Source: Gemmatimonadota bacterium (GTDB lineage: Bacteria > ARS69). From it: a stretch of 53,948 bases of DNA. Under the pieces are notes generated by a model. The model was not told the DNA's origin. It saw only the letters and a program-made list of their open reading frames with translations, and made no database searches. The DNA lies in NCBI GenBank assembly GCA_030747075.1, contig JASLLL010000016.1:1-53948 (forward strand), written 5' to 3'. Position 1 is the first letter of the stretch. Each line of letters opens with the position of its first letter. Below are positions 26,552 to 53,819 of the stretch, in pieces. The position numbers and the translations under genes are program-made.

Positions 26552-28813
26552 ATGGTGCCGAAGTTCCTCTGCTGTCGCCGGATCGTCGACCGTCTGCTTC
26601 TTGCCCTCTCCATTCCGATCGCTCTGGCGTGGGTACTGGCGCCACAGCCCGCCACCGCTTGCCGCATCGGGTCGCGGTGGGACGCCACCGCTCCCGCGGG
26701 GTCGGGGGCGCCGCCTGCCGGTCCCGCGTCGCGCACTGGGCACTTCGCGGACGGCTTCAGCCATCTCGTCTCGGTCGGCGTGTCCAACTACGACTCCGAC
26801 TGCAATCCGTGGCTCACTTCCGACGAGTCGGAGATCTTCTTCATCCGCGCGTCCGGCCATGCCGGGCCTGCGGATTCGCTCTTCGAAGGGAAGTGGGACA
26901 TCTACCACGCGGACTGGGATTCCGTGGCGGGGGACTGGGGGCCGGTGTCGAATCTGGGACCGGGCGTGAACTCACCCAATGCGGACCGCAGCCCGACGAC
27001 GACGGCGGACGGGGACACGCTGATCTTCGCATCCGGGGCCATCATGAGGGTGGCGATTCGTTCCGGAGGAGTGTTCTCTCTGGTGGATTCGCTCTTCACG
27101 GGGATGGACCCGTGCCTTTCCGAAGACGGATCGCAACTTTACTTCGTGCGCAACTACGACATCTGGGTGGCGGACCGCGGACCGAGCGGCGCCATCACCG
27201 ACTGGGTGAACCTGCGCGCGCTCAACTCCTTCGTCAATACAACCTACCGGGAGGATCGGCCCTACATCTCCCGTGACGGAACCCGACTCTTCTTTGCGGA
27301 CTTCGGAGGCCCCCGCCCGGGCGGGTACGGGGACGCGGACCTGTGGGTGAGCGACTGGGATCCGGTCATGAGCGACTGGAAGCCGCCCGCGAACATGGGG
27401 CCGCCGGTCAACAGCGACCGGCCCACCTGCACGCCGTGGGTGTCGGCGGACGGACGGCGGATCTACACCGCGTCGGAATCGAACGAGGGAAGCCGCGGCA
27501 CGGAGGACATCTGGATCTCGTACGCGGACTCGACCGTGGCGCCGGACTCCGCGAGCCATGTGCCGGGAGACTGGACACTCCTGGGCGATCTGGCCGGGGC
27601 GTGGAATGTGTACGACATCATCGGGGAGACCGGCGGCACGCTCCTCGCGGCGACTTCCCCGGAGGGCGCCGTCTTCCGGTCGACCGACGACGGCACTTCG
27701 TGGGCGAAGACGATTCTGCCCGGCGCGATGAAAGTCCATGTGCTCATGGAGACAAGCACCGGGGATCTGTATGCGGGGACCTACCCGCGGGGGCGCGTAT
27801 TCCGGTCGACGGACGGGGGGGCATCCTGGAGCGGCACGGCGCCGATCCCCGGCGCGAAGAGCATTCGGTCGCTTCTGGAGACCTCCGACGGGCGCGTGCT
27901 TGCGGGCGCGTCGCCGGACTGCGCCATCTTCGCCACGACCGACGGCGGGAGCAGCTGGTCCGCGCTGGGGGCCACTTCCGGCATGAAGAACAGCGTGACG
28001 CGGATGGCCGAACCGTCGCCGGGGGTGCTCCTGGCGGGCGGCTGGGGAGACCTGAACCGCTCGATCAATGGCGGGAGTTCGTGGAGCCGGATCATTCTGG
28101 GAAGCGGGATGTTCAGCTTCGAGTCGTTCACCACCGACTCCTCGGGGACACTCTGGATGACCGGCTGGAGCCACCACGATCAGGGCTTCGTCAGGAGAAG
28201 CAACGACGACGGGGCGTCGTGGACCACGACTTCCTCCTCGGTCACGGTGGATTCGCTGAACGCGGTGCGCGTATACGATCTCGTGGAGCCGGAGGCGGGA
28301 TCGCTCCTTGTCGGGTTCCAGCCCGGGCCGGAGCGGGTCGCTTGTCTCACCACCGACGGAGGGTCGACCTGGGATGTCCAGGAGTCGCTCTCCGGCGCGC
28401 GGGAGATTCTCCGCTTCCACAAAGACTCCGGCGGCGTGATCTATGCGGGGACCACGCCCAACGGCGACCTCTTCCGATGGGACGGCGGGAGCGCGACCGG
28501 CGCGGCGGTGCCGGGCGAGGGGCCAGCGCCTGTTCGGATGACGGCGGTCCTCGGCGGCGTGCCAAATCCCTTCCGCGAGCGGACGGTCGTGTCGTGGCAG
28601 GTGCCGCGCCGGACGGTCGCGGAGCTTTCGATCGTGGATGTGGCGGGGCGCCATGTGCGCTCGCTCTTCGCGGGTTCGGCTTCGGCGGGGCTGCACGAGA
28701 CCGCGTGGGACGGGCGCGACGAGTCGGGCGTGGCGGTGGCTTCCGGGATCTACTTTGCGCGGCTTCACTCGGGGGAGAGCGTGACCTTCCAGCGCGTCAC
28801 GAGGGTCCGATGA
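26552..28813 (+). CDS. Secreted PD40/Asp-box beta-propeller protein with C-terminal sorting domain (copy 1)
   Basis: Predicted 753 residues, ATG 26552 behind GGGAGG, with a signal peptide (LLLALSIPIALAWVLA). Residues of about 65-350 hold TolB/PD40-like blades such as ADGDTLIFASG, SEDGSQLYFVR and SRDGTRLFFADF. Residues of about 355-640 hold Asp-box repeats of the BNR/sialidase kind: FRSTDDGTSW, FRSTDGGASW, ATTDGGSSW, LTTDGGSTW. From about residue 665, VPNPFRERTVVSWQVP starts a FlgD-like Ig domain ending SGIYFARLHSG and RVTRVR, the form of a C-terminal sorting signal. It is probably exported across the outer membrane, perhaps by a type-IX-like system. No sialidase active site was seen. Confidence 0.9.
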   Translation: MVPKFLCCRRIVDRLLLALSIPIALAWVLAPQPATACRIGSRWDATAPAGSGAPPAGPASRTGHFADGFSHLVSVGVSNYDSDCNPWLTSDESEIFFIRASGHAGPADSLFEGKWDIYHADWDSVAGDWGPVSNLGPGVNSPNADRSPTTTADGDTLIFASGAIMRVAIRSGGVFSLVDSLFTGMDPCLSEDGSQLYFVRNYDIWVADRGPSGAITDWVNLRALNSFVNTTYREDRPYISRDGTRLFFADFGGPRPGGYGDADLWVSDWDPVMSDWKPPANMGPPVNSDRPTCTPWVSADGRRIYTASESNEGSRGTEDIWISYADSTVAPDSASHVPGDWTLLGDLAGAWNVYDIIGETGGTLLAATSPEGAVFRSTDDGTSWAKTILPGAMKVHVLMETSTGDLYAGTYPRGRVFRSTDGGASWSGTAPIPGAKSIRSLLETSDGRVLAGASPDCAIFATTDGGSSWSALGATSGMKNSVTRMAEPSPGVLLAGGWGDLNRSINGGSSWSRIILGSGMFSFESFTTDSSGTLWMTGWSHHDQGFVRRSNDDGASWTTTSSSVTVDSLNAVRVYDLVEPEAGSLLVGFQPGPERVACLTTDGGSTWDVQESLSGAREILRFHKDSGGVIYAGTTPNGDLFRWDGGSATGAAVPGEGPAPVRMTAVLGGVPNPFRERTVVSWQVPRRTVAELSIVDVAGRHVRSLFAGSASAGLHETAWDGRDESGVAVASGIYFARLHSGESVTFQRVTRVR
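28415..28813 (+). repeat. Near-identical 3' end shared by the tandem propeller genes (copy 1)
   Basis: This block aligns without gaps, at an offset of 2210 bases, to 30625-31023. By hand I count about 26 differences over roughly 390 bases (about 93% identity). The differences are spread through the block and many are synonymous. The upstream parts of the genes are much less alike. Confidence 0.85.
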
Positions 28814-31023
28814 CGGGCGGCGGTCGGCGGCGGCCCGCATTCGGGTCGGCCGCGGCGCTCGGGCTGTTGATCGCGGGCGCGGCGATCGCCTGCGATCCGG
28901 GCAACGCCCCGGACGGCGAACAACCCTATGCGGGGGCTCGCGGGATCGGCGGCACGGCGGCCGGTTCGTACAGCCATCCGATCAGCCTCAGCGTCTGCCT
29001 CTACGATTCCGAGTGCAACGGGTGGCTCACGCCTGACGAGCAGGAACTCTTCTTCATCCGCCTGTCGGGTGTGGGCGGTCCCGCGGATTCCGGCCATCAG
29101 GGCAACTGGGATCTCTACCACGCGGAATGGGATTCCGTGGCGGGGGACTGGGGTCCGGACACGAATCTCGGGCCGGGAGTCAACACGGCTGCCGGAGAGC
29201 GTCGGCCCACCACGACGGCCGACGGCGACACTCTCCTCTACGCGAGCGGGGCGGTCATTCGATGCGCGGTGCGAACGGCTGGCGTGTTCACGCAAGTCGA
29301 TTCGCTCTTTGTCGGGTCGGATCCGTGCCTGTCGGCGAATGCGTCGCAGCTTTACTATGTGAAGGCGTCCAACATCTGGCTTGCGGACCGGGGCCCGAGC
29401 GGCGCCATCACCGACTGGGTGAACCACCGGGCTGCTCCCGGAGCCGTGAACAGCCCCAACGCGGAGGTTCGGCCCTATATCTCCCGAGACGGCCAGCGGC
29501 TCTACTTCAGCGACTTCGGGGGGATTCGGCCCGGAGGCTACGGGAACGCGGACCTGTGGGTGAGCGAGCTTGTGGGGGCAGGCGTCTGGGGTCCGCCGCA
29601 GAATCTGGGGGCCCCCGTCAATACGGATGGCCCGGCCTGTACGCCGTGGGCGTCGGTGGGGGAGGATCGGCTGGTCATTTCCTCCGGCGTCTCCGAGGGC
29701 ACGCGCGGCATTGAGGATCTGTGGGTGCTGCATGCGGATTCGAGTGTGGCGCCGGACACGGTGGTGCATCCCGATGGAGTGTGGGCGCAGCTTGGAGAAC
29801 TGGACGGCGCGTGGAATGTGAACGCGATTCTCGGAGAGACGGGCGGAACGCTCCACGCCGCGACCTCTCCCGAAGGCGCGGTGTATCGATCGACCGACGC
29901 GGGCGCGAGCTGGGCGAAGTCGCTGCTTCCGGGAGCGATGAACGCGTACTCGCTTCTCCAGACGCCCGGCGGGGATCTCTACGCGGGGACCTACCCGGAC
30001 GGGGATGTGTTCTTCTCCGGTGACGACGGGCTTTCGTGGATTGCTACCGGGGACATCCCGGGGGCCACCGCCGTGCGGGCACTTCTTTCGACCTCCGACG
30101 GGCGCGTGCTGGCCGGAACCTCGCCCAACTGCGACATCTACGCCACGGTCGACTCGGGAGCGACCTGGACGGCCCTGGGAGCCACCTCCGCCATGCAGAA
30201 CAAGATCGCAACGCTCTACGAACCCTCTCCCGGCATTCTGCTGGCGGGAGGATGGGGTCGTCTCAACCGTTCCACGGACGGCGGCGCCACATGGACCGGG
30301 CTGATGCTGGGATCGGGAATGTGGAGCGTGGAGAGCTTCCACAACGACTCCGCGGGGCGCGTGTGGTGGACCGGTTGGTCGCATGACCTCCACGGGGGGC
30401 AGGTGCGATGGAGCACCGATGTCGGCGTGACCTGGACCCCGGTCGCTTCCGTGGAGGCGGACTCGATCCACGCGATCCGCATTTTCGATCTGGTGGAAAC
30501 GCCGGAGGGAGACTTCCTGGTCGGGTTCCAGCCGGGAATGGAGCAGCCGGTCTGCCGGACCGGCGACGATGGAGCCACATGGACCGTGGAGGGCACCATG
30601 ACCGGCGTGCGGGAAGTGCTGCGCTTCCACAAGGATTCCGGCGGCGTGATCTACGCGGCGACCACTCCCAACGGCGACCTCTTCCGATGGGACGGCGGGA
30701 GCGCGACCGGCGCTGCGCTGCCGGGCGACGGGCCGGCGCCTGTTCGGATGACGGCGGTTCTCGGCGGCGTGCCGAATCCCTTCCGCGAGCGGACGGTCGT
30801 GTCGTGGCAGGTGCCGCGCCGGACGGCCGCGGAGCTGTCGATTGTGGATGTGGCGGGGCGCCATGTGCGTTCGCTCTTCGCGGGGCCGGCTTCGGCAGGA
30901 TTGCACGAGACCGCGTGGGACGGGCGCGACGAATCGGGCGTGGCGGTCGCTTCCGGGATCTACTTTGCGCGGCTTCGCGCGGGGGAAAGCGTGACCTTCC
31001 AGCGCGTCACGAGGGTGCGATGA
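28810..31023 (+). CDS. Secreted PD40/Asp-box beta-propeller protein with C-terminal sorting domain (copy 2)
   Basis: Predicted 737 residues, ATG 28810 inside the stop of copy 1 (ATGA). It has its own signal peptide (GSAAALGLLIAGAAIACD) and the same architecture: PD40 blades (TADGDTLLYASG, SRDGQRLYFSDFGG), Asp-box repeats (YRSTDAGASWAK, RSTDGGATW), then the FlgD-like sorting domain. The proteins align without large gaps and the last 130 residues are nearly identical, so this is a tandem duplication. Coupling suggests the pair is secreted together. The signal-peptide end AGAAIACD could also be read as a lipobox-like site. Confidence 0.9.
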   Translation: MTGGGRRRPAFGSAAALGLLIAGAAIACDPGNAPDGEQPYAGARGIGGTAAGSYSHPISLSVCLYDSECNGWLTPDEQELFFIRLSGVGGPADSGHQGNWDLYHAEWDSVAGDWGPDTNLGPGVNTAAGERRPTTTADGDTLLYASGAVIRCAVRTAGVFTQVDSLFVGSDPCLSANASQLYYVKASNIWLADRGPSGAITDWVNHRAAPGAVNSPNAEVRPYISRDGQRLYFSDFGGIRPGGYGNADLWVSELVGAGVWGPPQNLGAPVNTDGPACTPWASVGEDRLVISSGVSEGTRGIEDLWVLHADSSVAPDTVVHPDGVWAQLGELDGAWNVNAILGETGGTLHAATSPEGAVYRSTDAGASWAKSLLPGAMNAYSLLQTPGGDLYAGTYPDGDVFFSGDDGLSWIATGDIPGATAVRALLSTSDGRVLAGTSPNCDIYATVDSGATWTALGATSAMQNKIATLYEPSPGILLAGGWGRLNRSTDGGATWTGLMLGSGMWSVESFHNDSAGRVWWTGWSHDLHGGQVRWSTDVGVTWTPVASVEADSIHAIRIFDLVETPEGDFLVGFQPGMEQPVCRTGDDGATWTVEGTMTGVREVLRFHKDSGGVIYAATTPNGDLFRWDGGSATGAALPGDGPAPVRMTAVLGGVPNPFRERTVVSWQVPRRTAAELSIVDVAGRHVRSLFAGPASAGLHETAWDGRDESGVAVASGIYFARLRAGESVTFQRVTRVR
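30625..31023 (+). repeat. Near-identical 3' end shared by the tandem propeller genes (copy 2)
   Basis: Partner of 28415-28813. It codes for the end of the propeller region and the complete sorting domain. The higher identity here than in the rest of the genes suggests gene conversion or strong constraint on the secretion module. Confidence 0.85.
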
Positions 31024-31132: not shown

Positions 31133-31672
31133 GTGTTCAACAGAGACCATGCGCTCTCCAGCGTTTTCGGCACGGTGCTGATCGCGTTGCTGGCCGCCGC
31201 GCCTGCCTTCGCCACCGCAAACCACGCTCACCATCACTACCACATGGGCGTGCGGGCCTTCGCGGGCACCCGCCACGCCGCCACACTTCATTATGAGTCC
31301 TGGGGTGGGGGGATGGACCTCGCGCTGGCCCGGGACGACGCCGCGGACATGGAGCGTCTTGCGGGAGAAATCCTGGAACGCCTGGAGAGGCTGGAGGCGG
31401 TCTGGACTCCGCAGGAGGCCCGGAGGATCAACCGGGATGTCGCGTCCATGAAGTCCATGTGCGCACGGGCGGCGGCGCTTTCGCGCTCTGTCGTGGGCTT
31501 CATCGACGAGGCGACTGTCGACGGGGACCTCGTCGCGGACGAAACGCTCTCCATGCGCTGTGCCGGAAAGGCCCGAGAGTTGTGGGATCTCTTCAGCGGG
31601 ATTCTCGCGGCGCACAAACGCGCGGAACGCGTCCTGGGGATTCCGGTCCCGCCGGATCCGCCTTCGCGCTGA
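31133..31672 (+). CDS. Small exported protein, unknown function
   Basis: Predicted 179 residues from GTG 31133, behind GGAGG. Signal peptide VFGTVLIALLAAAPAFA, then a His-rich start of the mature protein (NHAHHHYHMG) that could bind a metal. The remainder is predicted helical (MERLAGEILERLERLEAVW) with two Cys in the C-terminal half (SMCARAAAL and SMRCAGKA). Family not recognised. It is loosely reminiscent of small periplasmic helical metal-binding proteins, which is only an impression. Confidence 0.7.
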   Translation: MFNRDHALSSVFGTVLIALLAAAPAFATANHAHHHYHMGVRAFAGTRHAATLHYESWGGGMDLALARDDAADMERLAGEILERLERLEAVWTPQEARRINRDVASMKSMCARAAALSRSVVGFIDEATVDGDLVADETLSMRCAGKARELWDLFSGILAAHKRAERVLGIPVPPDPPSR

Positions 31673-31871: not shown

Positions 31872-33350
31872 GTGTCGCGTTTGTCGGCGTCTCGTCGAGA
31901 GCCTCTCCAGTCCGTCGTTGTCCGCGAGGCGGCGCAGCGGTCGGCTTCGACTGTGGTGGCTCCGGTGCTGATCTATCTGCCGGGTGTCTACTTTGCGGAT
32001 CTCCCGCCGGAGTCCGCCTGGAAAGCGGTGGCCGCAGGCGTGGTGCTTCTGGTGAGCGCGGCGTTTCAGCTCGTCGTGGCGCGCGCGGCCGAGGCTCCGC
32101 GCGCGAATCGTCCTTCTCGCGGCCGCACGCTCTTCGCCACGGCCACGCTGGTCGCCGGTACGCTCTGGGGGGTGCTCTGCGCGTATGCAGTCACCACGCG
32201 CGGACTGGACACCGCGACGCTCATTCTGCTGGCTGGCGCCTGCGGGCTTTGCGTGGCGTCTTCCTCGCTGGCGCCCTGCCTTCGGGTTCACCGCGCGTAT
32301 CTGGGCGTGGTGGCATTGCCCGCGGCTGCGGCAACCCTCCACCGGGGGGGAGCCGACGGGTTTGCCGCCGCCGCCGTGCTCCTGCTCCTCTCAGGGCTCC
32401 TGACCGCGCAGGGGGGGCGCGCCCACCGGGAATACTGGACGGCGCTCGTGAATCGCCGGCTTCTGGAAGAGCGCGCGGAGGAGTTGGAGGCGGCGCAGGC
32501 TCGTCTGGATGAAGCCCGTCGCGCGGCGCCGGAGTTCCTCACGAACATGAGCCACGAGACGCGCACGCCGATCAACGGGATCACGGGGATGGCAGGTCTG
32601 CTTGACGAGACGGACCTGAGTCGTGAGCAGCGCGAGTATGTCGACTCCATCCGCCGGTCGGCGGACGCGCTGCTCGAACTCATCACGACGATTCTCGAAA
32701 TCTCGCGGGTCGAGGCCGGGCAGGTTTCGCTGGAGGACCACCGCTTCGATCTCGCGCGGACGATCTCGGGGATTGCCGAGACGATGGCCGACGCGGCACG
32801 GGAGAAGGGCGTGGACCTTGTGGTGGAGTACCCGCCGGGAGTTCCACGCCTCTTCCGGGGAGACGAAGGCCGCGTGCGGCAGATTCTCACGAACCTCGCC
32901 GGGAACGCGCTCAAGTTCACGCAGGAGGGCAGGGTGCGGATCGCGGTGGAGTGCGCGCGCGAGGAACGCGGCACCGCGATGGTGGTGGTGGCCGTGGAAG
33001 ACAGTGGCGTCGGGATTCCGGCGGAGAAGCTCGCGACGGTCTTCGACAAGTTCACTCAGGCCGACGGGTCCGCCACGCGCCGGTTTGGCGGTACGGGACT
33101 GGGGCTTGCGATGACGCGGCAACTGACGGAACTCATCGGCGGCGAGATCGGCGTGGAGAGTGTCCCGGGCAAGGGGTCCATCTTCCGGGTGCGGCTTCCG
33201 CTCGCTCTGGAACCGGCCCCGGACGCAAACGGGCCGCGCCCTTCGACGCGGCCCGCGGCACTGTCCGCCCGGAAGGAGACCTCTCAGAAGCTCTGGCTGA
33301 GTCCGAGAAGCGCCAGTCGTCCCAGTTCCGGCGCCCCAATGAACTCCTGA
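31872..33350 (+). CDS. Membrane sensor histidine kinase (orphan)
   Basis: About 492 residues from GTG 31872, with GGGAG ten bases upstream. About six hydrophobic segments fill residues 20-190 and no periplasmic domain is evident. A short coiled coil (RLLEERAEELEAAQARLDEA) leads into HisKA with the phospho-accepting His in NMSHETRTPINGI (about residue 226). The HATPase region has QILTNLAGNALKFT (N box), VEDSGVGIP (G1), KFTQADGSATRRFGGTGLGLA (F/G2). No receiver or Hpt domain follows and no response regulator gene is adjacent. The last 22 codons lie antisense to the 3' end of the TonB receptor gene and look like run-on sequence. Confidence 0.93.
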   Translation: MSRLSASRREPLQSVVVREAAQRSASTVVAPVLIYLPGVYFADLPPESAWKAVAAGVVLLVSAAFQLVVARAAEAPRANRPSRGRTLFATATLVAGTLWGVLCAYAVTTRGLDTATLILLAGACGLCVASSSLAPCLRVHRAYLGVVALPAAAATLHRGGADGFAAAAVLLLLSGLLTAQGGRAHREYWTALVNRRLLEERAEELEAAQARLDEARRAAPEFLTNMSHETRTPINGITGMAGLLDETDLSREQREYVDSIRRSADALLELITTILEISRVEAGQVSLEDHRFDLARTISGIAETMADAAREKGVDLVVEYPPGVPRLFRGDEGRVRQILTNLAGNALKFTQEGRVRIAVECAREERGTAMVVVAVEDSGVGIPAEKLATVFDKFTQADGSATRRFGGTGLGLAMTRQLTELIGGEIGVESVPGKGSIFRVRLPLALEPAPDANGPRPSTRPAALSARKETSQKLWLSPRSASRPSSGAPMNS

Positions 33351-35995
33351 TGGCGGTGGTCCAGGATGTTCTGGATGGTGAGATTGAGCCGGGTGGCCTC
33401 CGTGAAGTCGTACGAGGCGGAGAGGTCGGCGATCGTGTACGCCTGAATGGTGCCGGTGTACGCTCCCGAGTCCACGGGGAAGGCGTCCACATACCGGACA
33501 CGCAGCATGGCGTTGAATCCGGTGGCGCGGTCTGAATAGGCGACCATCCCGCCGAACTTGTGTTTCGGAGCGTTGAGCGCGACATCGCCGATCCCGTCGG
33601 CGGATCGGAAGAAGTCCCGGCTCACATACGAGTAGTTGAGTCCGCCCGTCCACAGTCTTGACGGCGCCCACAGGAGCGACATGTCCACGCCCATGTAGGA
33701 GAAGTCGCCGAAGTTCCGGTAGGAGATCATGAGGTCGGCCGCGTCGTCGCCGGTGAAGCCCTCCGGCGTGATGGTGCCCAGCGGGATCTCCGCAAGCTTG
33801 GACGCCAGTTCGGCGACATCCGCCTCCGGCACGCCTTCCGACAGCAGGTAGGCGTGAACGCTGGTGGAGTCCAGAAAGACATTGGGCGTCTCCACGCGCA
33901 CCGCCGAGACGAAGTTGTTCACGCGGTTGTGGTAGACATCCACCGATGCTCCGAGCGTCTGCGACAGGAAGCCCTTGAAGCCGACCTCCGCCGTGTTCCG
34001 GATGGTGGGGATCAGGGGGTCGATGTCCATGACATACGACGGATCCACCTCGACCAGCGTCTCCGTGGCGATGTCCACCACGCGAAGGGTGGTCGCTACA
34101 TCTCCCGGGCCGGGAGAGGAGACCGCGAGTACCTGCGGATACCCCTGCGCCGCGACCAGCGTTCGCGCATTGAGCCACGCCCAGGATGCTTCCAGGCTGG
34201 TCGCCGCGACATTCGCATCTGCCGGTGCGTACGCTTCCCGCCCCAGCGGATTGAAGGGCGACTGCATGTACAGTCCGCCCAGCCCGCCGTTGGCGTCCTT
34301 GCGGAAGGTGTAGCCTTCGTCGGGAACCCCCCGATAGAGAACGTCCGACTGGAAGGAGTTCATCCCGAAGTCCGAGAATCCGAACACATCGTTCATGGCG
34401 ATGACATCCACGAAGAGTTCCGTCGAACTGGGTGTGCTGTAGGCGCGGTTGTAGGTGAGGCGGAACTTGCGCTGGTCGGACTTCCCGTAAACGATGGCCG
34501 CCCGCGGCGAAAAGACGACCCCCTCAAGCCGGTTGTGATGATCGAGTCGCGCCGCCGCGACGAGTTTCAGCGCGTTCGACAACCGCGTCTCCGACTGGAA
34601 GTAGCCGCCGACTTCGTCGATGTTGTCGTCGTCTTCGTTGCGGCCGAGGATGGTGCCCTTCGTCTCCGGACGCGTGAGCAGCACATCCATGCCGTAGGTG
34701 AAGTCCTGGTTCTCGCCGAGGTCCATTCCGTGCTGAAGCTGGGTGACGATGAGCTTGGACTCATCGATCATGCCTTCGCCGGTCCGCAGAAGGTACGAGT
34801 CTCCCGCGTCACTCATGTTCACGAACGACTGGAGGAACCAGCCGCCGTAGAGCAGGCGCCCCTGCAGGTAGCTGTAAGTATGGTCCACAATCTGCGCGCC
34901 GCCGACTCCGGTCATCTCCACATTGGATGCCCGATTGTACCCGCCGCCCAGAATCAGCGAGGACTTGCCGTTCATTCGCACATCGAGGCGGCCCTCCACG
35001 CCGAGCCGATCGATGTCGTAATCCCGGCGTCCGATGCTGAGCGTGTCCGCGAGTGCTCCCAGAGCGATGGCGTTTTCCCGCGCCTCCGCCTCCAGCCGGT
35101 CCGTGAACTGCCAGTCGTTCCCCTGCTGCTGCTGGACCGTGACCTTGTAGGCGACATTCTCGCCGAGCTTCATCGCGTGGCGCACCGATCCCATGGTCAC
35201 GCCCCGCTCCCCGCCGGACGCGGAGACCTCCGTTCCCGGGGAGTCGAAGGGAGAGCGCGTCAGCATATGGATGACGCCGTTCGCGCTGTTCGGCCCGTAG
35301 AGAGCGGAGCCCGGCCCGGAGACGATCTCGATTCGGTCGAGGTCATCGGTGGCGGTCGGGATGAACTGATAGGCGTTCACGCGAAGCGACGGAACGCGCG
35401 CGATCCGATTGTCCACGAGGGTCAGCGTGGCGCCGGAGAAGACATTGTTGAACCCGCGGACCACGACATTGGCCTGGTTGAGTCCCGATCGCACCACATC
35501 CACGGCCGGGAGCGCGGTGATGTTGTCCGCGGGCGTCATGGACTTCACTGCGCGAATGGCTTCCTTGCCGACCACCTGCACGGATGCGGGGGCCTCCAGG
35601 ATCTTCTCCGGGCGGCGGGATGCCGTGACCTGAACCGCGTCCACTTCGAAGGCGGCCTCATCCAGGGTGATCGAAATCTCCTGTGGCTTGTTCTTCCTGA
35701 CGGTGATCTCGATCGTCTTCGTGCGATAGCCCATGTAGGAGACTTTGAGCCGATAGAGTCCCGCGGCGAGGTTCTCAAAGAAGAAGTCGCCCTTTTCGCC
35801 GGTGAGGCGACCGACCACGGTGTCCCCGTTGGGGCGGGAGAGGATGGCGTTGGCCGAGAAGAGGCCGTCCCCGGTGGCGGAGTCCGTCACGATCCCGCGA
35901 AGGACTGCCCCCGGCTTCGGGGCGGCGTCGGCAGAGGCGGTCTGGGCCGCGTGGACGAGAAGAAGAGCGAGGGGAATCCACGATCGGGCGCGCAT
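33284..35995 (-). CDS. TonB-dependent receptor with carboxypeptidase-regulatory-like domain (copy A)
   Basis: Predicted 903 residues, ATG 35995 behind GGAGGA, with an N-terminal signal peptide. Residues of about 30-110 are a carboxypeptidase-regulatory-like domain (VLRGIVTDSATGDGLFSANA and VSYMGYRTKTIEI). The plug follows (about 115-250) with VQVTASRRPEKI as a TonB-box-like segment, VVVRGFNNVFSGATLTLVD and SGPGSALYGPNSANGVIHM. The rest is the 22-strand barrel, ending in a terminal Phe (ALLGLSQSF) for BAM recognition. It takes up a ligand across the outer membrane with TonB energy; the ligand is unknown. A close paralogue lies immediately upstream. Confidence 0.95.
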   Translation of the reverse strand: MRARSWIPLALLLVHAAQTASADAAPKPGAVLRGIVTDSATGDGLFSANAILSRPNGDTVVGRLTGEKGDFFFENLAAGLYRLKVSYMGYRTKTIEITVRKNKPQEISITLDEAAFEVDAVQVTASRRPEKILEAPASVQVVGKEAIRAVKSMTPADNITALPAVDVVRSGLNQANVVVRGFNNVFSGATLTLVDNRIARVPSLRVNAYQFIPTATDDLDRIEIVSGPGSALYGPNSANGVIHMLTRSPFDSPGTEVSASGGERGVTMGSVRHAMKLGENVAYKVTVQQQQGNDWQFTDRLEAEARENAIALGALADTLSIGRRDYDIDRLGVEGRLDVRMNGKSSLILGGGYNRASNVEMTGVGGAQIVDHTYSYLQGRLLYGGWFLQSFVNMSDAGDSYLLRTGEGMIDESKLIVTQLQHGMDLGENQDFTYGMDVLLTRPETKGTILGRNEDDDNIDEVGGYFQSETRLSNALKLVAAARLDHHNRLEGVVFSPRAAIVYGKSDQRKFRLTYNRAYSTPSSTELFVDVIAMNDVFGFSDFGMNSFQSDVLYRGVPDEGYTFRKDANGGLGGLYMQSPFNPLGREAYAPADANVAATSLEASWAWLNARTLVAAQGYPQVLAVSSPGPGDVATTLRVVDIATETLVEVDPSYVMDIDPLIPTIRNTAEVGFKGFLSQTLGASVDVYHNRVNNFVSAVRVETPNVFLDSTSVHAYLLSEGVPEADVAELASKLAEIPLGTITPEGFTGDDAADLMISYRNFGDFSYMGVDMSLLWAPSRLWTGGLNYSYVSRDFFRSADGIGDVALNAPKHKFGGMVAYSDRATGFNAMLRVRYVDAFPVDSGAYTGTIQAYTIADLSASYDFTEATRLNLTIQNILDHRHQEFIGAPELGRLALLGLSQSF

Positions 35996-36045
35996 GAAGT
36001 CCTCCGACTGGCTCCTCCCTGGACTCCCGGGGAGGGAAGAGGTTG

Positions 36046-36079
36046 CAAAATGGGCGCCCCCCCGTCAGGAGAGGCGCCC
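36046..36079 (-). terminator. Intrinsic terminator downstream of TonB receptor copy B
   Basis: On the minus strand, GGGCGCC and GGCGCCC (36079-36073 and 36058-36052) form a 7-bp GC stem around a 14-base loop, followed by ATTTTG. It starts nine bases after the receptor stop. The T run is short, so termination may be partial. Confidence 0.5.
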
Positions 36080-36087
36080 GGTGGAGG

Positions 36088-38763
36088 CTAGAACGACTGC
36101 GAAATCCGGAGCATCGCCAGGCGTCCGAGTTCCGGCGCGCCAATGATCTCCTGGTGCAGGTTGTCGAGCAGGTTCTGGACCGTCAGGTCAACGCGGGTTC
36201 CTTCGCCGATGCGGTATCCGGCCGTGAGGTCCACGGTCGTGTACTCGTCCACGGTGCCGACAAACGCGCCGGAGTTCACCGGGAAGGACTCCACCCAGCG
36301 CAGCCGGGCCTTTGCGTTGAAGCCCGTGGCGGCATCATGGTAGGCCAGCGTGGCCCCCGCCTTGTTCTTGGGTGAGTTCAGCGCGATCTCGCCCATTCCG
36401 CCGTCATCCGTGAACACATCCTTCGTCACATGCGAGTAGTTGAACCCCGCGGTCCACAGACGCGAGAGTGCGCACTGGACGCTGAGGTCCAGCCCGTCGA
36501 GGTCGAAGTCCCCGAAGTTGCGATAGGTCATGATGAGATCCGTGGGATCCTCCGAGCCTTCCGGTGTGATGGTGCCGACCGGGATGCCCGCGATGCCCTC
36601 CGCGAGTGAGGCCACCTGATCCGGAGGAAGGCCGAGCCCCCCGAGGTACGCGGCCAGCGTCGCGGGATCGTAGAACACATTCGGCGTCTCGACACGAAGC
36701 GCGGAGACGAAGTCGGTGACCTTGCTGTGGTAAAGGTCCACGGCCACGGAGATGCGGCTGCCGACCATCCCCTTGTATCCCAGTTCCATGGTCTCCGTAA
36801 TGGTGGGCCGGATGCGGTCCACATCGGTGACATAGGACGGGTCCACCTCGTCGAACTCGCCGCTCGTGGTGTTGAGAACGCGGAGCGTCGTGCCGACGGT
36901 TCCCGGGGCGATCACGGCAGGATCCGGAATGCCGGAAATGTCCACGCCCTGAGCCGCCATGATGGCCTGAATGGCGCCCCACATGAGCGTGGCGTCCGCG
37001 GGCAGCGGTTGCGCCGGGCCACCCAGGATGTCCGGCGTGAACGGTGACTGCATGAAGAGCCCGCCCACACCACCGAGGGCGTCATTCCGAGCGAAGGTGA
37101 ATCCGTCCGCGGGGACCCCCTTGGCCCACAGATCCATGCCGAGTCCGCCGAGGTCTTCCAGCGCGAGAAGATCCAGGAAGAGGTTGTTGGAGGTCGGCGT
37201 ACTGAACGCACGGTTGAAGGTGGCGCGGACCGTGTGGGCATCCGTCGGGCCGAAGACCACCGCGGCCCGCGGCGAGAAGACCCGATCCTCCAGATGGCTG
37301 TGGTCGTCCAGTCGCGCGGCGGCCACCAGCTTCAGTCCTCTCCCCAGGCGGGTTTCGCTCTGGAGGTACGCACCGAACTCGTCGATGGCGTCGGACTCCT
37401 CGTTTCGCCCGTTGATGGTGCCCCTGGTGTCGGGGCGGGTATTCAGGATGTCCACCCCGTAGGTGAAGTCCTGATTCGCGCCGAGGGCGGCACCGTGCTG
37501 GATCTGGGTGACGAAGAGCTTGGACTCGTCGACGATCGGGGCTCCCGTCCGCAGCAGGTAGGTGTCTCCGGCATCGCTCTGGTTCACGAAGGACTGGAGG
37601 AACCAGTCGCGGTACAGCAGACGCCCCTGTGCGTAGGAGTACTGGTAGTCCTTGACCTGCCCGGTCCCGAGGCCGGTCATCTCAATGTTCGACGCTTCGT
37701 TGACGCCGCCGTTCAGGATGAAGGTGGCTTCCGGAGTCAGATGGACATCCAGGCGACCTTCCACTCCCAGCCGGTCCACATGGTAGTCCCGGGCACCGAT
37801 CAGGAGCGTCGCGGGGTCCGCACCATCGTCGATGGCCACCTGGCGGTAGTACTGCTCGACCGGATCCACATACTCCCAGTCTTCGCCCTCCTGATGCTGG
37901 AGCGAGACCCGGAAGGCCGCCCGGTCGCTCAGCTTCACCGCATGGCGGATGGAGCGCGTGATGATGTTGCGCGTCCCGGCGGCGACGCTCACGGTCGTCC
38001 CTTCCGACGAGAACGGAGAGCGCGTCACCATGTGGACGACGCCGTTGGCGCTGTTCGGGCCGTAGAGTGCCGAACCGGGGCCGGAGACGACTTCGATCCG
38101 CTCGAACTCCTCGGTCGGCGTGGGGATGAACTGGTAGGCGTTCACCCGGAGCGACGGGACGCGGGCAATCCGGTTGTCCACGAGGGTCAGCGTGGCGCCG
38201 GAGAACACATTGTTGAACCCGCGCACCACGACATTCGACTGGTTGATGCCCGCGCGGACCACATCCACGCCGGGCACCGTCGTCAGGTGGTCCGCCGGAG
38301 TCAGCGTCTCTCGGCTCTGGATATCCCCCTGATTCACGACATGCACCGCTGCCGGGGCGTCCACGATCTTCTCCGGGCGGCGCGAGGCGGTGACCTGCAC
38401 CGCATCCATCTCAAACGCCGTCTCGGAGAGCTCCACCGAGATGCGGGCGGCTTCTCCACCGGAGACGGTGACATCGCCCGACCAGGCGGAGTAGCCCATG
38501 TAGGAGACGCGGACGGAGTAGGTGCCCGCCGCGAGGTCGGCGAACACGAACTTGCCGGACTCGCCGGTCAGCCGACCGTTGACCGTCTGGCCTGAGGCGT
38601 TCGACAGGACGACATTGGCCGAGAACAGGGCCGCGCCGGTGCCGCCGTCTGTGACGGAGCCCCGGATGGAGGCCGTGCCGGCCGCGACGGGGGCGGCTGC
38701 CGCCAGGCAGAGAGCCAGCAGCATCAGAATGGGGACAAGAGTATCCTTGAAATGGAAGCGCAT
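36088..38763 (-). CDS. TonB-dependent receptor with carboxypeptidase-regulatory-like domain (copy B)
   Basis: About 891 residues from ATG 38763, behind GGAGG; an upstream in-frame ATG adds ten residues without a ribosome site. It has a signal peptide (ILMLLALCLAAAAPVAAG), regulatory-like domain (SIRGSVTDGGTGAALFSANV, VSYMGYSAW), plug (VQVTASRRPEKIVDAP, VVVRGFNNVFSGATLTLVD, SGPGSALYGPNSANGVVHM) and barrel ending AMLRISQSF. Long identical stretches with copy A show a tandem duplication, while barrel loops differ, suggesting different ligands or different substrate-lipoprotein partners. No SusD-type gene is adjacent. Confidence 0.95.
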   Translation of the reverse strand: MRFHFKDTLVPILMLLALCLAAAAPVAAGTASIRGSVTDGGTGAALFSANVVLSNASGQTVNGRLTGESGKFVFADLAAGTYSVRVSYMGYSAWSGDVTVSGGEAARISVELSETAFEMDAVQVTASRRPEKIVDAPAAVHVVNQGDIQSRETLTPADHLTTVPGVDVVRAGINQSNVVVRGFNNVFSGATLTLVDNRIARVPSLRVNAYQFIPTPTEEFERIEVVSGPGSALYGPNSANGVVHMVTRSPFSSEGTTVSVAAGTRNIITRSIRHAVKLSDRAAFRVSLQHQEGEDWEYVDPVEQYYRQVAIDDGADPATLLIGARDYHVDRLGVEGRLDVHLTPEATFILNGGVNEASNIEMTGLGTGQVKDYQYSYAQGRLLYRDWFLQSFVNQSDAGDTYLLRTGAPIVDESKLFVTQIQHGAALGANQDFTYGVDILNTRPDTRGTINGRNEESDAIDEFGAYLQSETRLGRGLKLVAAARLDDHSHLEDRVFSPRAAVVFGPTDAHTVRATFNRAFSTPTSNNLFLDLLALEDLGGLGMDLWAKGVPADGFTFARNDALGGVGGLFMQSPFTPDILGGPAQPLPADATLMWGAIQAIMAAQGVDISGIPDPAVIAPGTVGTTLRVLNTTSGEFDEVDPSYVTDVDRIRPTITETMELGYKGMVGSRISVAVDLYHSKVTDFVSALRVETPNVFYDPATLAAYLGGLGLPPDQVASLAEGIAGIPVGTITPEGSEDPTDLIMTYRNFGDFDLDGLDLSVQCALSRLWTAGFNYSHVTKDVFTDDGGMGEIALNSPKNKAGATLAYHDAATGFNAKARLRWVESFPVNSGAFVGTVDEYTTVDLTAGYRIGEGTRVDLTVQNLLDNLHQEIIGAPELGRLAMLRISQSF

Positions 38764-39021
38764 CGGTTCCTCCAGGCTCATTGGGACGGTCAATCGGGAC
38801 GGAGGGCATACCGCTCATGGGGAAGCGACTGACCTCATAATCAGCGGAAAGGGAAACAGGTTCCCGCGATTGTGTCTATAGCCCTTATCCGGCGGGTCCT
38901 GCGCGGGGGGATGCCAAGGCGGCGCAAAGCGGCCGCAGGGGCCGCTGAATGCCTCTCAGGGCGTGAGCGACGCTCACCCCCCCCGACGAGCTTCTACGGC
39001 CCGGCCGCGGCTGCGCCCGGC
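38764..39021. other. Intergenic region between TonB receptor copy B and mmsA, with two dyads
   Basis: 258 bases without a gene. It contains a perfect 7-bp inverted repeat with a one-base centre, GTGAGCG-A-CGCTCAC at 38963-38977, beside a run of C, and an imperfect stem with arms AGCGGC/GCCGCT around 38930-38950. They lie 3' of mmsA and could help end its transcript, but no T run follows. I could not find a convincing promoter for the receptor here; the leader part (38780-38880) is less GC-rich than its surroundings. Confidence 0.4.
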
Positions 39022-52731: not shown

Positions 52732-52808
52732 GGGGGGGTGGGGGGGGCGGTGAGGTCGGGGTAGCTTGGCCCCGATCGGAAACGGTCTCCCCGGTGGAGG
52801 CAAGGAAG

Positions 52809-53819
52809 ATGGGTGACCGGCCAGGGAAGCTGATGGAGCAGATGCGGGGCGCGATTCGCATGAAGCAGTACAGCCCCCGGACGGAGAAAGCCTACGCGCA
52901 GTGGGTGCGGAGGTTCGTGCGTTTCCACGGGATGCGGCACCCGCGGGAGATGGGCGCGGGCGAGATTCGAGCGTTCCTGACGCACCTGGCCGAAGTGGGA
53001 CGCGTCAGCGCATCCACCCAGAACCAGGCGCTGTGCGCGCTTCTGTTTCTCTACAGGGAAGTGCTGGGTGTGAAGCCGGGGTGGGTGGACGGGGTGGCGC
53101 GAGCGAAGCGGCCGGTGCGACTGCCGGTGGTTCTGGGCCGCGGGGAGGTGAACGGCGTCTTGAGCGCGATGCACGGTATGCCGAGGCTTGTCGCGACACT
53201 TCTGTACGGGTCGGGGCTGAGGCTTCTGGAGAGCGTGCAACTCAGAGTGAAGGACCTGGACTTCGAGAGGCTGGAGGTGTGCGTCCGGAGCGGGAAGGGG
53301 AACAAGGACCGACTGACGGTGCTGCCCGCCGGGATCGTGGAGGCGCTTCGGGGGCACCTTGCGAGAGAGCGGGAGCGGCATCGGGCTGAGAGGGCCTCAG
53401 GCAGGGGACGGGTGAAGCTGCCGAAGGCGCTGGATCGGAAACTGCCGGGTGCCGGGGTGGAGTGGGCGTGGCAGTGGGTGTTTCCGGCGCGAAGAACCTA
53501 TGTGGAGAGAGAGACCGGGCGCGAGTTCCGGCATCACTACCACGAAACGGCTGTCCAGAGGGCGGTGAGGTCGGCGGCCATCCGGGCGGAGATTCCGAAA
53601 CGGGTCACCTGCCATGCGTTTCGCCACTCATTTGCCACGCACCTGCTGGAGGACGGATACGACATCAGGACCGTGCAGGAACTCCTGGGGCACAAGAGTG
53701 TCAAGACGACGATGATCTACACGCATGTGCTGAACCGAGGGGGCCTTGGGGTTCGGAGCCCGGCGGATGGGCTGCGGGCGGCGCGGCGGTTGGGGGGGCG
53801 TGGGGGCAGGGCTGGATAG
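52809..53819 (+). CDS. intI: Integron integrase (IntI-family tyrosine recombinase)
   Basis: About 336 residues from ATG 52809; upstream GGAGG and AAGGAAG give a fair ribosome site. The N-terminal SAM-like domain contains [23 protein letters not shown]. Catalytic residues include Arg in YGSGLRLLE (about residue 136), [12 protein letters not shown] (His and Arg, about residue 268), [15 protein letters not shown] with Tyr (about residue 303). The insert that separates IntI from XerC/D is present: [18 protein letters not shown], then [17 protein letters not shown]. The C-terminus ([15 protein letters not shown]) is also IntI-like. It is transcribed toward the window edge, away from the Feo locus, so any cassettes on its 3' side lie outside or at the very end. 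Confidence 0.93.

Follow-up and report, generated by a model that had tools for sequence, protein, structure and literature searches.

We find that two adjacent genes for secreted-looking proteins with paired propellers, here termed A and B, end in nearly identical stretches of about 400 bases on gene bodies that have diverged far more strongly. We place a probability of roughly 0.75 on the reading that A and B are tandem paralogues of long standing whose tails were homogenised by gene conversion well after the two genes had diverged. Both lie in the window (the whole 53,948-nucleotide stretch of DNA analysed here), which is contig 16 of G000, a Gemmatimonadota genome of 2.67 Mb in 61 contigs.

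Gene A (26552-28813, + strand) encodes a protein of 753 amino acids and its tandem paralogue B (28810-31023, +) one of 737. They have the same architecture, composed of a signal-peptide-like start, two propellers (the first PD40, the second YCF48-like) and an FlgD_ig/type A sorting tail. An earlier reading of the letters alone (the sequence-only reading) had described the two genes as joined by an ATGA overlap, and its coordinates are correct: the stop codon of A and the start codon of B overlap at 28810-28813 (+). The GAGGG at 28801-28805 (+) is a candidate ribosome-binding site for B. CGATGA closes both genes, and a start function is needed from the copy in A only; behind the copy in B (31020-31023, +) there is a frame of just 12 codons.

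At the N-termini of both proteins we read a signal-peptide-like stretch with a final Cys. The Pfam models PD40 and Reg_prop score above their cut-offs in both proteins, Sortilin-Vps10 falls slightly short (32.4 and 30.3 against 33), and BNR and BNR_2 give sub-threshold matches in A only. The C-terminal end of each protein matches FlgD_ig (38.7 and 41.6 against a cut-off of 27) and, right at the cut-off, the NCBIfam type A sorting domain TIGR04183 (23.4 and 23.0 against 23), the latter covering residues 671-749 of A (28562-28798, +) and 655-733 of B (30772-31008, +). The Pfam model Por_Secre_tail (PF18962) scores the two tails at 13.9 and 13.6, below its cut-off of 27. The PD40, Reg_prop and FlgD_ig matches thus bear out the claim that both are PD40 propeller proteins with a common C-terminal sorting module.

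The second propeller of B (29782-30690, +) has a YCF48-like fold according to both its sequence profile (E about 2e-4) and its predicted structure, for which Foldseek gives a TMt of 0.74 against 2xbg with a model of moderate confidence (mean pLDDT 61). This model covers the second half of the protein; a whole-length model of B built from a two-row alignment reached a mean pLDDT of 39 and its fold matches were discarded. The second propellers of A and B resemble the seven-bladed propellers of the YCF48 type (PDB 2xbg, 5oj5), from which the two proteins differ in having a PD40 propeller before and a sorting tail after this domain, and in an identity of 15%. The similarity is one of fold only, the YCF48 model NF010237 scoring 25.2 and 10.3 against a cut-off of 326. 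The first propeller resembles the PD40 part of PorE/CHU_0125-type proteins; the corresponding models score far below their cut-offs (NF052230, 25.9 and 37.4 against 600; NF053607, 53.1 and 68.5 against 620) and, unlike these proteins, A and B contain no OmpA-like domain detectable with Pfam. A scan with B found no named relatives, and among plasmids three records matched, in the tail region only. The propellers are predicted to form a ligand-binding head displayed at the cell surface.

The 399 bases at 28415-28813 and 30625-31023 align without gaps and are 93% identical, far above the upstream parts, just as the sequence-only reading had stated; the offset is 2210 and the upstream identity approximately 65%. 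In windows of 40 codons the nucleotide identity of A and B is 0.41-0.44 in the first three windows, 0.57-0.76 over columns 60 to 600; in the tail it rises to 0.92-0.96. By a two-rate test the change point lies at 28412 in A (2-lnL interval 28409-28429), with 577 differences in 1683 bases (0.343) before it and 26 in 399 (0.065) after it. The likelihood ratio of 149.7 compares with a maximum of 22.4 among 500 codon shuffles, and the best-segment score was equalled in none of 20000 shuffles. A recent duplication of the whole gene is expected to leave uniform identity along both copies, which is not what the sliding windows reveal.

The homogenised tract therefore runs from 28412 to 28813 (+) in A and, shifting the change point of A by the offset, from 30622 to 31023 (+) in B. 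It takes in most of the last blade, the linker and the sorting domain; its 5′ edge falls within the last propeller blade of the model, some 50 codons short of the sorting domain. The homogenised sorting-domain end that had been described is consequently real, but the stretch exceeds the sorting domain and includes most of the last blade together with the linker. At the 3′ side the tract reaches as far as the stop codon, since the two copies are not homologous any further: matching ceases two bases past the stop. The longest exact match between the two genes is 52 bases within the tracts and 31 bases within the bodies. At the protein level the bodies are 59% and the tails 95% identical, with seven amino-acid differences in the tract.

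Synonymous sites follow the same pattern. The NG86 estimate of dS is 1.07 upstream (alignment columns 40-621, where it is near saturation) and 0.20 in the tract, while dN is 0.336 upstream and 0.025 in the tract. Among codons that specify the same amino acid in both genes (Met and Trp excluded), 171 of 320 are identical upstream (53%) against 102 of 121 in the tract (84%; Fisher p 8e-10). Selection on a protein signal alone does not reduce synonymous divergence, and since dS falls in the tract such selection on the secretion signal cannot by itself explain it. Of the two causes offered by the sequence-only reading, gene conversion is thus supported by the homogenised synonymous sites, and selection on the secretion signal alone is not. 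Strong selection that kept the tails alike without any exchange of DNA would fit the high amino-acid identity of the tails and their low dN relative to dS (0.025/0.20). However, dS itself is about fivefold lower in the tract, the codon identities differ as just described, and the tract edge precedes the sorting domain instead of following the domain edge. In addition, a homologous pair in the genome G198 (L208 and L209) has no tail excess and the other tails of G000 are widely different. Unless selection acts on the DNA as such, the synonymous data contradict this explanation, and we see only a very slim chance that it is right.

Under the gene conversion reading, A and B would be long-diverged tandem paralogues of a double-propeller protein, and homologous recombination would have copied the approximately 400-base 3′ end of one gene over that of the other. 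The copied piece would comprise most of the last blade, the linker, the sorting tail and the CGATGA end. The recombination event itself we infer from the pattern that it would have left. As to the direction of copying, the few of the seven differing sites that can be compared with G198 are mixed: an Ala of B agrees with L208 and L209, and a Gly of A with L210.

The main rival remains a recent duplication of the whole gene followed by replacement of one 5′ body by a diverged homologue from elsewhere, which would leave the young tail in place. Such a replacement predicts the same pattern of identity, and diverged donors exist, since a distant lineage also has homologues that span both propellers. 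It nevertheless needs upstream homology at about 65% identity, where the longest exact match between the bodies is the 31 bases given above, and the bodies of A and B are closer to each other (59%) than those of A (49-50%) or B (45-49%) are to L208/L209. We therefore regard body replacement as unlikely. An artefact of assembly or binning, in which the tails were cross-assembled, has in its favor the fragmentation of the genome and the capacity of repeats of such length to mislead short-read assembly. Against it, the 26 differences are scattered along the tract, the longest exact match in the tract makes cross-assembly unlikely, and both reading frames stay open, so that we consider an artefact highly improbable.

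The other tails of the same genome serve as controls for the gene conversion reading. The genome-wide count of the sorting domain that had been proposed gives 99 FlgD_ig matches in G000, 89 of which are above the cut-off. Comparison of the tail DNA, which covered 98 of the 99 tails (the one left out is on contig 10) and for 18 of them used the whole locus of 1.8-3.2 kb, revealed similarity along the whole length in no pair but A and B; the remaining tail-tail matches are 63-85% identical over 52-548 bases. Besides B, the tail of A finds similarity of 70-73% over 97-119 bases at three places in the genome, as well as two short matches, one of 27 bases (93%) and one of 44 bases (80%). Neighboring tail genes on contigs 4 and 21 (38% amino-acid identity) have no excess of DNA identity in their tails (49 frames examined, including A and B), and these pairs may be too diverged to recombine.

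A further tandem pair in the window encodes TonB-dependent receptors with CarboxypepD_reg domains (33284-38793, - strand; 57% amino-acid identity). Its plug region forms a segment of low divergence, with 14.7% differences inside and 37.0% outside (LR 57.6). Within this segment 80-85% of the amino acids are identical, and same-amino-acid codons are identical at 24 of 32 and 17 of 34 positions (75% and 50%, compared with 84% in the tract of A and B). These figures indicate that codon identity can also go up through constraint acting locally or through a conversion of small extent; the segment looks to be mainly the product of protein constraint, with a small conversion being possible.

The body finds matches in 24 of 386 genomes at 1e-8, and among the matches listed both propellers are spanned in two of the 386, G000 and G198. 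At most three candidates were scored per genome, and copy numbers are thus lower bounds. In the other genomes of the phylum (four, 67-96% complete, two of them below 90%) there is no full-length match to A or B, and G001 gives a partial one. The G198 homologues L208 and L209 are 64% identical in the body and 60% in the tail, L209 being without its last residues; the corresponding values are 36% and 38% for L208 and L210, and 32% and 32% for L209 and L210. As a control the L208-L209 pair is imperfect, its 40-codon windows being patchy (0.47-0.90 nucleotide identity) with the 0.90 peak away from the tail. Since the G198 homologues likewise consist of a body followed by the tail, the tail was not added late and, judging by these sequences, was probably ancestral.

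A second flaw of this control is that the G198 family has near-identical tails of its own. Where contigs of G198 break off within propeller genes, two tails (L208 8585-8939 and L209 1-339) are 97.3% identical over 339 bases, with 9 differences, and the end of contig 80 has 93 exact bases in common with contig 15. Such ends could be additional cases of tail homogenisation or, alternatively, one gene in different strain versions. On contig 80 the end of a double-propeller gene, of which the contig holds the last 137 codons only, is followed through ATGA by a second double-propeller gene. In L210 (3769-3787) the ATG that overlaps the stop of the preceding gene does not share the frame of the second gene's propeller body, which reflects a genuine lesion or else an error of assembly. 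On contig 15 another propeller end is ATGA-joined to a 504-residue protein with a sorting tail. An ATGA end ahead of a next gene is found in three cases in all, and behind the gene of L208 the next frame begins 11 bases past the stop. The secreted-looking genes beside the propeller gene at L209 2466-5635 have starts that appear to resemble those of TIM-barrel hydrolases.

The search for type IX secretion genes in G000 was positive for SprA, PorU and PorV. The SprA model gives 550.7 bits summed over the frame (best single stretch 207.2, cut-off 200), and on contig 14 a PorU match (542.9 against 420) is adjoined by a PorV match (195.6 against 90). Nine frames contain, between them, ten pieces that match C25-peptidase. 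On the weaker side, none of 14 control genomes gave a match to the SprA or C25 model, and the GldM model TIGR03517 matched neither G000 nor any control genome. With SprA, PorU and PorV models above their cut-offs the genome does not lack type IX-like machinery, and export of A and B by this route is therefore probable on sequence grounds. The two proteins would cross the inner membrane by Sec and then exit by way of the SprA channel, their tails being handled by PorV and PorU, after which the two propellers would be displayed on the cell surface as a head that binds ligands. The sensor or adhesin role previously suggested for them is a guess. A and B resemble known type IX substrates (TIGR04183, or the FlgD_ig fold of PF13860) in carrying the tail at the extreme C-terminus and in occurring with the SprA, PorU and PorV matches; they differ in reaching the TIGR04183 cut-off only, in staying below that of PF18962 and in the absence of a GldM match.

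Gene conversion is a known process of ordinary recombination, and the propeller protein family is little described. In the literature on type IX secretion and recombination we found no description of sorting-tail conversion. One study describes how rearrangement of domains, allelic exchange and gene conversion have shaped surface proteins of Porphyromonas gingivalis (PMC5266723). The likeness to A and B lies in the recombination of surface proteins, which in that species include Kgp, a type IX cargo. In that study the variation between strains falls in the adhesin and catalytic domains and the C-terminal domain is described as conserved, whereas in A and B the tail itself falls within the single homogenised tract of two tandem paralogues.

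A and B are a clean case in which apparent gene conversion renews the export tails of two secreted proteins, whose heads, presumed to face the ligand, diverge all the same. Common tails can serve as recombination substrates in a genome with about a hundred of them, and we see this in one pair only.

Behind B lies a gene for a small His-rich, exported-looking protein of 179 amino acids (31133-31672, +), and a homologue follows the homologous pair on G198 contig 80 as well (32% identity, E 7e-11). The protein is matched in 5 of 386 genomes including G000, the match in G044 being weak and unseen by tblastn. The recurrence of the propeller pair and this small partner in a distant genome is a testable lead on the ligands of the propellers. 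On G198 contig 15 a double-propeller gene follows, at a distance of 77 bases, a group of genes encoding an ABC permease (TIGR01581, 215.5 against 210.3), an ABC ATPase and MoaD/ThiS-like and MoeB/ThiF-like proteins, the last three scoring above Pfam cut-offs and below the NCBIfam cut-offs of the models tried; a candidate binding-protein frame there had no match. In G001 (L228, 709-1217 and 1218-4532) the gene for the small His-rich protein, which has an HAHxH motif, overlaps by ATGA with a MoeB-like gene. MoaD-like and ModA-like genes lie upstream on the same strand, with an unannotated stretch in between; the ModA-like protein scores 58.1 against 62.5 with TIGR01256 and is above the SBP_bac_11 cut-off. 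The MoeB-like gene of G198 is nearest to that of G001 (52%), and the only match in G000 at 1e-25 is distant (E 6e-28). These two links in two genomes are no more than suggestive of an association of the propeller and His-rich proteins with MoeB/MoaD-type clusters. One may imagine an undescribed surface module of tandem, ATGA-coupled double propellers and a small exported [HR]AHxH protein, linked to a molybdate- or tungstate-type uptake cluster with MoaD-/MoeB-like genes, in which the 3′ ends, being at once export signal and start site of the next gene, are repeatedly homogenised; this we hold to be rather doubtful. Beside A and B, no molybdate-type cluster was found among the window genes scanned.

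Separately, the right end of the window carries an integron integrase gene (52770-53819, +), which matches TIGR02249 with 423.2 bits against a cut-off of 265.
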